Positions 1 to 4,262 of a stretch of DNA of 64,000 nt are shown piece after piece (position 1 is the stretch's first letter; each line of letters begins with the position of its first letter). Below the pieces are notes generated by a model. It had not been told where the DNA came from, made no database searches, and saw only the letters and a list, made by a program, of their open reading frames with translations. Source of the stretch: an uncultured Subdoligranulum sp. (GTDB taxonomy: Bacteria > Bacillota > Clostridia > Oscillospirales > Ruminococcaceae); contig CALZZE010000003.1 in the NCBI GenBank assembly GCA_945830575.1, positions 62,001-126,000 on the forward strand. The letters are read 5' to 3'. Position numbers and translations under genes: made by a program.

Positions 1-1
1 G

Positions 2-1450
2 CTGCACTTTGCACTGGAGCAGGGCTATGACGTGGTGGGCATTTATGTGGACGAAAACTGGTCCGGTGCGGACCGTAACCGTCCGGCCTTCAACCAGATG
101 CTGCGTGCGGCGGAAAAGCGGGAGTTTGAAATTCTGCTGGTGAAAACGCAGGCACGGTTCTCGCGGGACGCAGAGCTGACCGAGCTTTGCCTGCACCGGA
201 AATTCCCGGAATGGGGCATCCGGTTCCTCTCCCTTGTGGACCATGCGGACACAGACAACGCCGCCAACAAAAAAACACGCCAGATCAACGCGCTGGTGGA
301 TGAGTGGTATCTGGAGGACATATCCCGCAATGTGAGGGCCTCTCTGGAAACCATGCGGCAGCAGGGCAAAAATGTGGCCTCGCTGGCGCTGTACGGGTAT
401 CTCAAGGATCCGCAGGACCGGCATCACCTGATTCCTGACCCGGCAGCATCACAGGTGGTACGGGCCATTTTTCACATGGCCAGCAAGGGGATGGGGGCTT
501 CCAACATCGCATTGATTTTGAACACCCAGAACATTCCCTGCCCCAGTCAATACCGGCAGTTCCGGGACGACAAGCTGCATACCATGGAAAAACGGATGTG
601 GAATGACGTTTCGGTGACCAACATCCTGAAAAATCCTACCTATACAGGAGATATGGTGCAGGGGCGCATCCGCAGCAGCGGTTACAAGACGCAAAAGCGG
701 GTCCGTGTCCCGAAAGAAGAATGGGCCGTGGTACCCAACACCCATGAGGCGTTGGTGGAGAAAGAGGTGTTCGAGAAAATCCAGCAGCAGATGGCAGAGC
801 GCCGGGTCCAGTCCCAGCGCCCTCCCAAAATACGGCCGCTTTCCGGGCTGGTCAAATGCGGCGTTTGCGGCGGCAACATGATTTTTTCCGGCAATGACCG
901 GGTCTGCGCGGCGGATGGCTACCCCGGCGGCATCATGCGTTGCAGCCGCAACCGGAGCAACCCGATGGAATGTCAGCCCAACAAAATCCGGCTGTACCTG
1001 CTGGAGGAGGAGGTACAAAAGCGGATCCGCGGCTTTCTCAAGCATTACTATCTTCCAAGCGAAGTACCTCCTTTGCCGAGGGGGAAGGAGAACGAGACCA
1101 TCGGGAAGAAACGGCGTCAGCTGGAAACGGAACTGCAGCGGTGCACAACGCTGGCAAAGCAGTTGTATCTGGAAAAGTGTCAGGGCCGTTTGAGTACCGA
1201 GGCCTTCATGCAGAAGAATGCCGAGCTGAGCCGGCAACAGGCAGCTGCCCAGATGGAGCTGAATCAGCTGCCCCGCGACTGCTCCGTCCGCCTGATGAAC
1301 AACGAGGAAAAACAGCAGAAATTGCTGCGTATGAGGGTGCTGAAGGATTCCCTGATCCTGGACAGGGAACTGTGCCGTTCTGTGATCCGTGAGATTATTG
1401 TCCATCCGGCGCCGCCCACCGGCAAAATCGAGATACATTGGAAATTCTGA
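2..1450 (+). CDS. Large serine recombinase, 5' end cut by window edge
   Basis: The reading frame is open from base 2, so the gene starts outside the window; 482 codons plus stop are visible. The order fits large serine integrases. First comes the rest of the resolvase domain, with VDENWSG and the KTQARFSRD segment that matches the conserved K-x3-R-F-x-R region. Next is a Recombinase domain, then a zinc ribbon opening with CGVCGG and later cysteines near base 945, then a charged coiled coil at about bases 1090-1280. The C-terminus ends in IEIHWKF, as is common in the family. The catalytic serine lies in the missing N-terminus. These enzymes integrate and excise phages or conjugative elements at att sites next to their own gene. 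The stop lies 43 bases from a truncated host-type gene, which marks this as the element's edge. Family call is firm; activity cannot be judged. Confidence 0.93.
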   Translation: MHFALEQGYDVVGIYVDENWSGADRNRPAFNQMLRAAEKREFEILLVKTQARFSRDAELTELCLHRKFPEWGIRFLSLVDHADTDNAANKKTRQINALVDEWYLEDISRNVRASLETMRQQGKNVASLALYGYLKDPQDRHHLIPDPAASQVVRAIFHMASKGMGASNIALILNTQNIPCPSQYRQFRDDKLHTMEKRMWNDVSVTNILKNPTYTGDMVQGRIRSSGYKTQKRVRVPKEEWAVVPNTHEALVEKEVFEKIQQQMAERRVQSQRPPKIRPLSGLVKCGVCGGNMIFSGNDRVCAADGYPGGIMRCSRNRSNPMECQPNKIRLYLLEEEVQKRIRGFLKHYYLPSEVPPLPRGKENETIGKKRRQLETELQRCTTLAKQLYLEKCQGRLSTEAFMQKNAELSRQQAAAQMELNQLPRDCSVRLMNNEEKQQKLLRMRVLKDSLILDRELCRSVIREIIVHPAPPTGKIEIHWKF

Positions 1451-1493
1451 AGGGGAGTGAAAACACCTCAAACAGGTGCCGTCTGTATTCACG
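1451..1493. other. Candidate att junction of the recombinase-bearing element
   Basis: This short stretch lies between the recombinase stop and the point where the next protein becomes recognisable (the WPEQAIRAN residues). It contains a small inverted repeat, CACCT-caaa-CAGGTG, at about 1466-1480. Large serine integrases usually sit directly beside attL or attR, whose half-sites are imperfect inverted repeats. The crossover core is inferred from position, because the other element end is not in the window. Confidence 0.5.
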
Positions 1494-3568
1494 GGTGGCC
1501 GGAACAGGCCATCCGTGCCAACATTCTGGCGCAGATTTCTCTGGCGCTCAACCGGGTGTGGACCGAGTGGTACCCCAGCCGGGGATACAGCTTCAACATC
1601 AGCGGCAGCCCCGGCTATGACCAGATCTACACCAGCGGCCGCACCGTGTTTGCCGTGATGGAGCGCATCACCGCCGAGCTGTTCTCCACCTACGTGCGCC
1701 GCACCGGCGACGCGGAGCCGTATTTCACCGAATACTGCGACGGCAAGACGGTGACCTGCCCCGGCATGAAACAGTGGGGCACCGTGGACCGGGCCAACGA
1801 GGGCATGAACGCCCTGCAAATTCTGCGGTACTACTACGGCAGCCGGGTGCAGCTGGTCACCACCAACAAAATCGCCGCCATCCCGGAAAGCTACCCCGGC
1901 AGCCCGCTGCGGCGGGGCTCCACCGGCACGGCGGTGAACACGCTGCAAAAGCAGTTGGCCCGCATCGCCAAGGATTATCCCAGCTTTGGCAAGCCGGACG
2001 TCACCGGCACCTTTGATGCCGCCACCGAGAGCAGCGTCCGGGCATTCCAGAAGCAGTTCGGCCTGACGGTGGACGGTGTGGTGGGCCGCGCCACGTGGTA
2101 TAAAATTTCTTATATCTATGTGAGTGTGAAGGATCTGGCCGAGCTGACCAGCGAGGGCGAGGCCCTCACCGGCGCGCAGAGCGGCGGGGCATGGCCCGGC
2201 ACAGTGCTGCGGCGAGGCTCCACCGGCGCGGATGTGGAGATGGTGCAGTTCTGGCTGTCCGGGCTGGCACAGTTCAGCTCCGCCATTCCCAGCGTGACGG
2301 TGGACGGCACCTACGGCGCGGCCACCGAGAGCGCTGTCCGGGCATTCCAGCGCCAGCAGGGGCTGACGGTGGACGGCATCGTGGGGCAGGCCACCTGGGA
2401 CGCGCTGTATGCCGCGTGGGTCAGCGCCCAGAGCGATTCCGGCGGCACCGCATGGCCGGGCACGGCGCTGCGGCAGGGCAGCAAGGGCGTCAATGTGCGG
2501 CTGGTGCAGTTCTGGCTGCGCATGGCGGCAGGCAATTACAGCGGCTTGTCTGCTGTGACGGTGGACGGCACCTACGGCACGGCCACCGCCCGGGCGGTGA
2601 CGGCCTTTCAGACCAAATTCGGCCTGACCGCGGACGGCGTGGTGGGGCGCGCCACGTGGAGCAAACTCAACGAGGTCTTTCTGGCGGTGGCCAACAAGCT
2701 GGTGGACTATGATGTGGCTCCCGGCCAGTTCACCGGCACGCTGCGGCAGGGCAGCAGCGGCACGGCGGTGCGGGCGCTGCAATATGATCTGCGGCAGCTG
2801 TCCGCCTACTATTCCGATATCCCCGCCGTGACAGTGGACGGCCAGTTCGGCGCCGCCACCCGGCAGGCCGTGGTGGCATGGCAGCAGCACGCGGGCCTGA
2901 CCGCCGACGGCGTGGTGGGGCCGCTCACCTGGCAGAGCATCTACGACAACGCCCAGAGTGCCTCCTCCAGCGGGCCGGTGGCCCGGGCGGCCGCCATCCT
3001 GCCGCCCTCCAGCACCCTGCAGCTGGGGGACACCGGCGCGGATGTGACCACCCTGAGCGAAACGCTGCTGTTTTTGGCCCAGTGGCTCAACGGCATCCAG
3101 ATTTGGGAGAGCAGCGAACCCACCGACACCTTTGACGAGGGGGTGCAGGTCGCGGTGCGGGGCGCGCAGGAGGAACTGGGCCTGCCGGTGACCGGGGCGG
3201 TCACTCCGGCGGACTGGCGGGTATTCTACAACGCAGCCTTTGCGCTGTTCTCCGCCACGCCGGCCACCGCCTCGCCGGAGCCGGAGGGTGTCTGGCCCGG
3301 GTTCACGCTGGCCGAAGGCAGCGCCGGGCCTGCGGTGCTGCAGGTGCAGCGTTGGCTGAACATTCTGGCCGCCACCGGCTGCCAGTGGAACTTCGTGCCG
3401 GAGACCTCCGAGCTGGACGGCGATACCCTCGCCGCGCTGGAGGCGTGGCAGATCGCCAACGGCATCCAGCCGCTGGGCATCGTGGACGACGCCACCTGGG
3501 AGGCCCTCAAGGCCGCGGCGGCGGCCGCCTGCCCCGCCTGTGCGGCCGCCATGACAGAGGAGGAATGA
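1457..3568 (+). CDS. SpoIID-like protein with six peptidoglycan-binding repeats, 5'-truncated by element insertion
   Basis: The open frame from a GTG codon gives 703 residues. After about 12 arbitrary residues the sequence enters a SpoIID/LytB-like segment (WPEQAIRANILAQ, then YFTEYCDGK and LRYYYG). Six PG_binding_1-type repeats follow, each with an LRxGSxGxxV start and a DGxxGxxTW end: about bases 1906-2100, 2188-2415, 2455-2670, 2740-2940, 3016-3220 (degenerate) and 3295-3510. From memory of clostridial relatives, the protein normally has roughly 150 or more residues before WPEQA. Their absence next to a recombinase indicates that the element inserted inside this gene. The purines before the GTG lie only about 1 base from it, a poor start signal, so the remnant may not be translated. 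The intact protein would bind cell-wall peptidoglycan. The next gene starts 4 bases on and is probably co-transcribed. Confidence 0.8.
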   Translation: MKTPQTGAVCIHGWPEQAIRANILAQISLALNRVWTEWYPSRGYSFNISGSPGYDQIYTSGRTVFAVMERITAELFSTYVRRTGDAEPYFTEYCDGKTVTCPGMKQWGTVDRANEGMNALQILRYYYGSRVQLVTTNKIAAIPESYPGSPLRRGSTGTAVNTLQKQLARIAKDYPSFGKPDVTGTFDAATESSVRAFQKQFGLTVDGVVGRATWYKISYIYVSVKDLAELTSEGEALTGAQSGGAWPGTVLRRGSTGADVEMVQFWLSGLAQFSSAIPSVTVDGTYGAATESAVRAFQRQQGLTVDGIVGQATWDALYAAWVSAQSDSGGTAWPGTALRQGSKGVNVRLVQFWLRMAAGNYSGLSAVTVDGTYGTATARAVTAFQTKFGLTADGVVGRATWSKLNEVFLAVANKLVDYDVAPGQFTGTLRQGSSGTAVRALQYDLRQLSAYYSDIPAVTVDGQFGAATRQAVVAWQQHAGLTADGVVGPLTWQSIYDNAQSASSSGPVARAAAILPPSSTLQLGDTGADVTTLSETLLFLAQWLNGIQIWESSEPTDTFDEGVQVAVRGAQEELGLPVTGAVTPADWRVFYNAAFALFSATPATASPEPEGVWPGFTLAEGSAGPAVLQVQRWLNILAATGCQWNFVPETSELDGDTLAALEAWQIANGIQPLGIVDDATWEALKAAAAAACPACAAAMTEEE

Positions 3569-3572
3569 GTGT

Positions 3573-4262
3573 ATGCCAAAGGTTTATGTGTATGACAGCT
3601 ACGACAATAAGTTCCTGCGGTACAACCTGAAGGAAAGCGACCCCATGCCCTACAGCTACGGCACCACCCTCAGTGTGCGGGAATTCCGCGGCTCCAGCGG
3701 TTCCAGCGTGCTGTGGACCACCACCGCCGCCATGGAGGCGTGGAACCTCACCCGCCGCCGCTACGGCTCGGGCATTCCGGTGGGCTACGCCTTCAAGCGC
3801 ATCTGGGAGGGCGGCCACGGCACCGCCAGCCAGCACTACGCGGGCGTTGCCTTCGATGTGGGGCAGGGCACCAGCAGCGCCACCCGACGGCGCATTTACA
3901 ACGCGGCGGTGGCCACCGGGGCGTGGGGTTACGTGGAGCCGCTGTCCATGACCCCCACCTGGGTGCATTTTGACCGCCGCTACGGCACCCCGGCCTGCAG
4001 CGGCACCACGGCGGGCTACCCCACCTGCCGCAAGGGCGACCGCAACACCTACGTGTTGATTTTGCAGGACGCCCTCAACGCCCTCGGGTACAGCACCCAG
4101 ACGCTGGACGGTGTGTTCGGCACCAACACCTTCAACGCCCTCACCGGGTTCCAGCGCAGCGTGGGGCTGACGGCGGACGGCATCTGCGGGTGCAACACCT
4201 GGAAAAAGCTGACGGCCGCCTCGGTGGGCATTGGCGCCACCAAGACTGTCATCGACAAGTGA
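3573..4262 (+). CDS. VanY/M15-like peptidase with peptidoglycan-binding domain
   Basis: This 229-residue protein has M15-type zinc-ligand motifs: SQHYAGVAFDVG fits S-x-H-x2-G-x-A-x-D, and WVHFD supplies the second histidine. A single PG_binding_1 repeat at the C-terminus runs from about base 4030 to 4205 and ends in CNTWKKL. Such enzymes trim D,D- or L,D-peptide links in peptidoglycan. No signal peptide is visible, so export would need another route or the protein acts after lysis or sporulation. The ATG follows GAGGAGG of the preceding coding end by a good distance. The gene forms a cell-wall pair with the upstream truncated protein and ends at a strong terminator. Confidence 0.75.
   Translation: MPKVYVYDSYDNKFLRYNLKESDPMPYSYGTTLSVREFRGSSGSSVLWTTTAAMEAWNLTRRRYGSGIPVGYAFKRIWEGGHGTASQHYAGVAFDVGQGTSSATRRRIYNAAVATGAWGYVEPLSMTPTWVHFDRRYGTPACSGTTAGYPTCRKGDRNTYVLILQDALNALGYSTQTLDGVFGTNTFNALTGFQRSVGLTADGICGCNTWKKLTAASVGIGATKTVIDK

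Follow-up and report, generated by a model that had tools for sequence, protein, structure and literature searches.

A serine-recombinase island splits a predicted SleC-family gene at one codon in several genera of gut bacteria and may be excised during sporulation

The skin elements of Bacillus subtilis and Clostridioides difficile encode a serine recombinase and split sigK, a mother-cell gene both halves of which are kept. The staphylococcal cassette chromosome (SCC) combines a serine recombinase pair (ccrAB) with a single chromosomal site and variable cargo, and its site leaves its staphylococcal gene usable. In C. difficile, the directionality factor of skin is reported to be the 72-residue protein CD1234 (PMC5025042). 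By published account, the gin element in gerE of Bacillus cereus ATCC 10987 carries several serine recombinases, two of them in an operon, and the 42-residue GirX (PMC5595907), and the yin element in yabG of Clostridium botulinum V73 is prophage-like, comes from one strain, and has a putative small directionality factor and a predicted late promoter (PMC10747680). Here we describe a 59.7-kb serine-recombinase element that splits a predicted SleC-family gene in an uncultured Subdoligranulum sp. (source genome G000, 2.88 Mb) whose relatives point to Gemmiger as its genus, together with its counterparts in other gut bacteria. The window, that is, the whole stretch of 64,000 nucleotides analysed (G000:C3:62001-126000, C3 being contig CALZZE010000003.1), begins inside the right end of this element. 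(Genomes, contigs and loci are numbered with G, C and L, respectively.) The locus appears to belong with skin, gin and yin, in that a sporulation gene (as judged by homology to SleC) is split, both halves are kept and a serine recombinase is encoded; what is new relative to the known cases is the target gene, which is sleC-like, and the occurrence in several genera.

In the window, the second of two tandem recombinase genes ends with its stop codon at position 1450, and the first codon homologous to the interrupted gene is the TGG of the segment WPEQAIRAN, at 1496-1498. A sequence-only reading of this DNA, made by a model from the letters and their open reading frames (ORFs), had put the distance between the two at 43 bases and the attachment site at 1451-1493; the distance is 45 bases and the crossover lies at 1496-1498. 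The same reading had called an N-terminal part of the gene missing and had pointed left of the window as the place to look for it. Intact relatives do carry about 190 residues ahead of the TGG codon, and the corresponding part of the G000 gene is present upstream, on the same contig and strand as the 3' half (C3:3187-3759, + strand; tblastn), where it is 63% identical to an intact relative across all 195 residues. On the left, the gene sequence runs to ...GAGATTTACCCCAGC-TGG, after which homology is lost; on the right, homology resumes with TGG-CCGGAACAG. The core common to both junctions is TGG, which by junction comparison is found once in attL (C3:3763-3765) and once in attR (1496-1498, + strand), with a core-to-core distance of 59,733 bp, and the frame is preserved when the halves are joined there. 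Thus, the 3' part in the window (1496-3568, + strand, 690 codons) and the upstream 5' part are firmly established as the halves of a single gene that is divided at a TGG codon, and the proposal that a serine-recombinase element interrupts the gene stands, with the 5' half lying 59.7 kb upstream. Judged by the positions of the gene halves, the right end of the element occupies 1-1495 of the window and the remainder lies to its left (C3:3766-62000).

A profile built from 28 intact relatives hits PDB entry 9h68 ('Spore cortex-lytic enzyme pre-pro-form') with an E value of 8.8e-85 over profile positions 2-338. The G000 5' half alone aligns to residues 98-255 of 9h68 (E 1.1e-11) and the 3' half aligns to residues 258-476, starting from the TGG tryptophan (E 2.7e-49); on 9h68 the two matches come to within two residues of each other. 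These matches lead us to assign the interrupted gene, by homology, to the SleC family of spore cortex-lytic enzymes. The six peptidoglycan-binding repeats noted in the sequence-only reading are borne out by six PG_binding_1 stretches in the 3' half; its label 'SpoIID-like' has to be given up, as one intact relative scores 20.0 bits against the SpoIID family PF08486, below the gathering score of 23. The break falls five residues past an invariant glutamate, E184, within a strongly conserved run; by analogy with SpoIID, E184 may be catalytic. With the SleC profile, no further SleC-family copy was found at E<=1e-10 in any of the 19 interrupted genomes searched (of 27), and four intact control genomes have exactly one copy each, so that the split gene is what looks like the sole SleC-family gene of the interrupted hosts. 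In C. difficile, sleC is reported to be part of the sigma-K regulon, which is that of the mother cell, and is described as indispensable for germination (PMC3789822, PMC3738446), so the SleC-family identity strengthens the comparison with skin that had been drawn from the sequence.

A survey of homologues across GTDB species genomes yielded 134 relatives, of which the best 80 were classified. Intact homologues do not start at WPEQA: 53 of these 80 loci read through the TGG codon, in keeping with an insertion there, while 26 are interrupted at it and one (L084, in G032) ends at it, at a contig edge, and was left out of the interrupted count. Because 26 of the 80 related loci break at the same codon, chance is excluded. 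These 26 and G000 make up a set of 27 interrupted genes, which come from Gemmiger, Faecalibacterium, Fournierella, Anaerofilum, Ruthenibacterium and uncultured Clostridia; Gemmiger formicilis ATCC 27749 (L071) is one of the carriers. Complete, stop-free 5' halves are present in 25 of the 27 cases, one of them across a contig break (L149, in G076); L135 (G073) is interrupted without a 5' half, and for L081 (G024) the 5' half is unassignable, since an intact gene sits on another contig. All 24 of the 5' halves extracted by script, a set that excludes L149, terminate at the tryptophan codon. The 3' halves have at least 600 codons in 22 of 27 cases; among the five shorter ones, one runs into a contig end, two (L106 and L108) match the intact L102 in length and two are apparently truncated. 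Within Gemmiger, 33 of 35 genomes carry the gene, 10 of them clearly interrupted and two (G024 and G032) ambiguous. (Note that the state of G007, G018 and G029 was judged from open-frame length or from their named-scan record.) The draft genome G024 contains an interrupted 3' half (C96, L081) and a separate intact gene (C120, L046); since the interrupted copy is so near L079 (dS, the synonymous divergence, is 0.05), G024 likely represents two populations.

Both halves and the island lie on one contig in G000, G010, G071, L106, L108, L110, L114, L126 and L127, where the islands measure 2.96 kb (L106, L108), 7.87-9.92 kb (L110, L114, L126, L127), about 19 kb (G010), about 19.8 kb (G071) and 59.7 kb (G000). 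A serine recombinase adjoins the junction in 25 of the 27 interrupted cases, with 17 placed at the left end in antisense, four at the right end as a tandem pair (including G000) and four at the right end singly; the two cases with no visible recombinase junction are L133 (contig end) and L135 (no 5' half). In L110, an inverted repeat surrounds the core at the two island ends. The recombinases of L053, L061 and L064, from the G. formicilis group (ATCC 27749, MCC627 and DFI.6.10), are about 400 residues long counted from a YCRLS motif, some 110 shorter than most. The tandem pair of G000 consists of a 521-residue recombinase followed by one of 512 residues, whose gene begins at C3:61912, 89 bp to the left of window position 1 (full ORF at L006 3912-5450), and whose 3' part, covering 1-1450 of the window on the + strand, matches the Pfam families Resolvase, Recombinase and Zn_ribbon_recom.

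In all 24 islands examined (L108 was omitted, being near-identical to L106), the recombinase, or the first of the pair, is preceded by a small ORF, 33-70 residues long, that shows the pattern YxVxExF...R; in G000 it lies upstream of the first recombinase, at C3:60136-60261. These ORFs were first picked by eye and then tested with cross-group hidden Markov models (HMMs) on 317 frames in all, other frames of the training loci not being listed. An HMM of the 13 non-Gemmiger small ORFs recovered each of the 11 others, and in those loci no further frame scored E<1; an HMM of seven from Gemmiger recovered 17 of 17; and one of the four tandem-pair members recovered 18 of 20, alongside three other frames at E 0.23-0.56. 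Neither Pfam nor PHROGs yielded a convincing known family, and one member touches a PHROG called excisionase (E 0.077). We regard the small ORF as a candidate directionality factor.

The gene and the recombinase operon also have an upstream motif in common. Of 60 regions ahead of the sleC-like gene, 55 contain a -10-like sequence, [CA]ATAnnnT[GA] (dinucleotide shuffles, mean 1.6 and maximum 5; antisense, 5), six rows that duplicated others or contained N having been removed beforehand; the sequence recurs upstream of the small ORF and recombinase operon in 14 of 24 (shuffles, mean 1.3 and maximum 5; antisense, 1), or in 9 of 14 when one island per clade is counted (shuffles, mean 0.7 and maximum 4). 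In 22 of 32 anchored regions, an AC ends exactly 17 nucleotides before the CATA, with 0-3 at other spacings. The motif was found in 2 of 32 control regions upstream of spoIVA, which resemble operon interiors. A CATA-type motif with this AC spacing presumably resembles a sigma-K promoter, and the CATAnnnTG-type motif shared by the gene and the recombinase operon would thus be mother-cell-like. Spo0A scores over cut-off in 35 of 37 genomes (not in G062 or G065) and SpoIVA in 33 of 37 (not in G001, G024, G062 or G067). Faecalibacterium prausnitzii is mentioned as a spore former in a review (PMC8953710).

The split state appears to be old in several clades. For 19 genomes with the left-end and the single right-end kinds of recombinase, the recombinase and SpoIVA trees agree (Mantel r 0.63, with 0 of 9,999 permutations as high, p 1e-4), and they do so within Gemmiger (0.98, 7 genomes, p 0.01) and among the others (0.68, 12 genomes, p 2e-4). 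On the gene tree, the interrupted state is clustered (17 changes versus a shuffled mean of 22.8, p 0.002), and five clades are purely interrupted. Among 18 within-clade pairs, 16 of them with both halves, the dS values of recombinase, 5' half and 3' half are near-equal in many (0.14/0.14/0.17, 0.10/0.07/0.14, 0.44/0.45/0.43 and 0.54/0.48/0.42). The ratio of nonsynonymous to synonymous divergence (omega) of interrupted halves is 0.08-0.34 within clades, similar to that of intact close pairs; distant pairs reach 1.55 (intact) and 1.02 (interrupted 5' halves), values that we take as saturated, omega being read from close pairs only. Because recombinase and halves diverge roughly in step and both halves are under purifying selection, the split arrangement looks inherited within clades and functional. 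If the halves were never rejoined, it would be difficult to account for a split that is old and inherited and a gene that has nonetheless stayed under constraint.

We therefore favor, with a probability of roughly two in three, the reading that the element is a site-specific serine-recombinase cargo island that would be excised in the mother cell during sporulation to rebuild the gene. In such a scheme, a mother-cell sigma factor would switch on both the small ORF and recombinase operon and the sleC-like gene; the recombinase would join the two TGG cores, and the island would depart as a circle in the mother cell. The rebuilt gene would yield a zymogen that is packed into the spore, while the island would stay in the forespore chromosome and so be inherited by the next generation.

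Several observations weigh against this scheme. Neither an excised form nor a rejoined gene was seen in an interrupted strain among the assemblies. The interrupted 3' halves of L110 and L135 appear truncated, at codons 228 and 342, respectively. (Either sequencing error or decay may be the source of these early stops; truncation is also seen in 2 of the 53 intact loci.) In distant pairs, recombinase dS exceeds that of the halves by a factor of up to about 1.8, and it is saturated in one Faecalibacterium pair; in view of these higher or saturated values, some exchange of recombinases among relatives may have taken place. Constraint on the small ORF is weak in one clade (a ratio of nonsynonymous to synonymous polymorphism, pN/pS, of 0.79). 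The promoter motif was first spotted in the sleC-like upstream regions, so the shuffle control there is not independent, and in G000 the exact pattern shows no enrichment (4 sites versus 7 for a reversed control), the other three sites having no recognizable spore gene downstream; a sigma-K regulon defined by the exact pattern is thus unsupported. The sigma-K model TIGR02846 gave no match over its cut-off in 10 of 10 genomes, and the B. subtilis control fails it too. Finally, the hosts are putative spore formers at most.

The strongest competing explanation, which we nevertheless consider unlikely, is an ordinary integration hot spot: a conserved codon run would attract elements, the gene would be off in carriers, and excision would occur occasionally by chance, with no developmental program. 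The unseen excision fits this idea, as do the two truncated 3' halves, the use of one site by differing cargo, and the closeness of the interrupted L137 to the intact L143 (dS 0.14 for the 5' half and 0.21 for the 3' half); moreover, F. prausnitzii genomes are reported to be rich in integrative elements (PMC6295017). A hot spot does not account well for a recombinase and two halves that have diverged roughly in step across species, so that the split looks old in several clades, for an omega of interrupted halves in close pairs as low as that of intact genes, for five purely interrupted clades or for a promoter motif common to the gene and the recombinase operon. Rather less probable is a reversible population switch, in which excision and re-integration toggle germination capacity in some cells at any growth stage. 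Two gene contigs of UBA1360 (L045, at the end of G032:C104, and the start of L084) both stop exactly at the attachment site, as would those of a mixed population, and the excised form of yin is reported at all time points (PMC10747680); against this, a contig end is weak evidence, a single recombinase query in UBA1360 matched only two places, both on other contigs, and the motif upstream of the recombinase operon is mother-cell-like. It is very improbable that the halves are translated separately and cooperate as a split protein: both are conserved, and in the 3' half of G000 a GTG lies 13 codons ahead of the TGG and follows AAGGGGA (weakly Shine-Dalgarno-like and outside the pattern list), but the cut lies five residues beyond the invariant E184, in 7 of the 27 3' halves the stretch from the last stop to the TGG lacks any start codon, and in just one of the 27 does an in-frame start ahead of the tryptophan come with a listed Shine-Dalgarno-like site. 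Draft assemblies make up most of the genome set, and many of the breaks are close to a contig end, but an assembly or binning artefact is next to inconceivable, given the nine carriers listed above with both halves and the island on a single contig, several of which are recorded as isolates.

With regard to cargo, 20 of the 59 listed ORFs of the G000 region were scanned with Pfam. They include a mechanosensitive channel, a sigma-70-type factor, a two-component pair, a SpoIIE-type phosphatase, peptidases, ABC and MacB/HlyD export parts, PAP2, a phosphatidylserine decarboxylase and a LanC-like protein; no phage structural or packaging genes and no relaxase or type IV secretion genes were found among them (PHROGs was not applied to the cargo), and a prophage or conjugative element is thus unsupported by the ORFs scanned. 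No relatives of the recombinase were found in IMG/VR. In five other islands, the cargo was sampled through ten chosen ORFs (Pfam). L110 carries a choloylglycine hydrolase and an MCRA-family protein (L110:2252-5289), L106 an FMN dehydrogenase, G010 a surface-repeat protein, and G071 a solute-binding protein and a hybrid kinase; in G070, fucose-use genes lie on the element side of the junction, with the 3' half on a separate contig. By eye, ORFs like the hydrolase and MCRA-family pair are present in L114 and L127, and an MCRA-like one also in L126. The scanned cargo is thus made up of metabolic, transport, regulatory or surface genes. Because bile acids are reported to be germinants in C. difficile (PMC11878537), the placing of a bile-salt-type hydrolase inside a germination gene may not be by chance.

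That the 60 kb might be normal chromosome was rejected on the spread of the SpoIIE-type gene and on a search with the element ORFs. At E<=1e-20 the former has matches in 4 of the 35 Gemmiger genomes, G000 among them, the other three matches having 43-54% identity and partial coverage. When 36 element ORFs of at least 140 residues were compared with 200 kb around the intact gene in two single-contig genomes, five matched at E<=1e-15; these matches include both recombinases, have 29-39% identity and are read as probable paralogues. The 229-residue downstream neighbor of the 3' half (3573-4262, + strand; ORF scan), which has one peptidoglycan-binding repeat, also adjoins the intact gene in two single-contig Gemmiger genomes. 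At C3:4421 and C3:59663 (L006 1663), close to the two ends of the island, there are similar signal-peptide-like starts, which perhaps reflect a partial gene duplication.

Among the described systems, the islands are most like gin, being non-phage islands that split a sporulation gene and have serine recombinases, a small directionality factor (here a candidate) and a short core repeat. They differ from it in target (sleC-like rather than gerE), in core (TGG only in G000 rather than 9 bp), in their spread over several genera with clade-wise inheritance, and in the position of the candidate factor directly before the recombinase; excision here is inferred from sequence. In contrast to skin, the target is a germination effector rather than a sigma factor, the cargo varies between genomes, and there are no phage genes among the ORFs scanned. 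Like yin, the islands intervene in a gene that in C. difficile is under SigK control, but yin is prophage-like and known from one strain whereas here there are 27 genomes. The likeness to SCC in recombinase pair, single site and variable cargo does not extend to the gene, which here is cut in two, nor to the recombinase, which at 81.9 bits is far under the Ccr cut-offs (900 for CcrB, NCBIfam equivalog), and membership in SCC was rejected. Titles and abstract starts of the literature matches listed contain no description of this insertion. The main text of PMC10083194 contains none of 'SpoIID', 'Faecalibacterium' and 'Gemmiger', its sole 'sporulation' being in a reference title; PMC6295017 describes F. 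prausnitzii islands beside integrases and recombinases, and 'serine recombinase' and 'integration site' do not occur in its available text.

If the island is excised during sporulation as we propose, a germination-enzyme gene would join the targets of developmental DNA rearrangement, and the phenomenon, so far a matter of isolated cases, would extend to several bacterial genera that are common in the gut. We are evenly balanced on a further suggestion, namely that these commensals keep their sole germination-enzyme gene split as a docking bay for cargo, the same codon of which is used by two recombinase arrangements, with the island being cut out only in the dying mother cell. If so, cargo such as a bile-salt hydrolase, a fatty-acid hydratase or genes for fucose use would sit cost-free in an important gene and be transmitted only through the spore line. 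The islands also provide many natural pairs of recombinase and candidate factor, and the rejoined gene and the circle would be simple markers, by PCR or read mapping, for hidden sporulation. The finding bears on whether relatives of Gemmiger and Faecalibacterium sporulate, as selection on the split sleC-like gene argues that the rebuilt gene is used.

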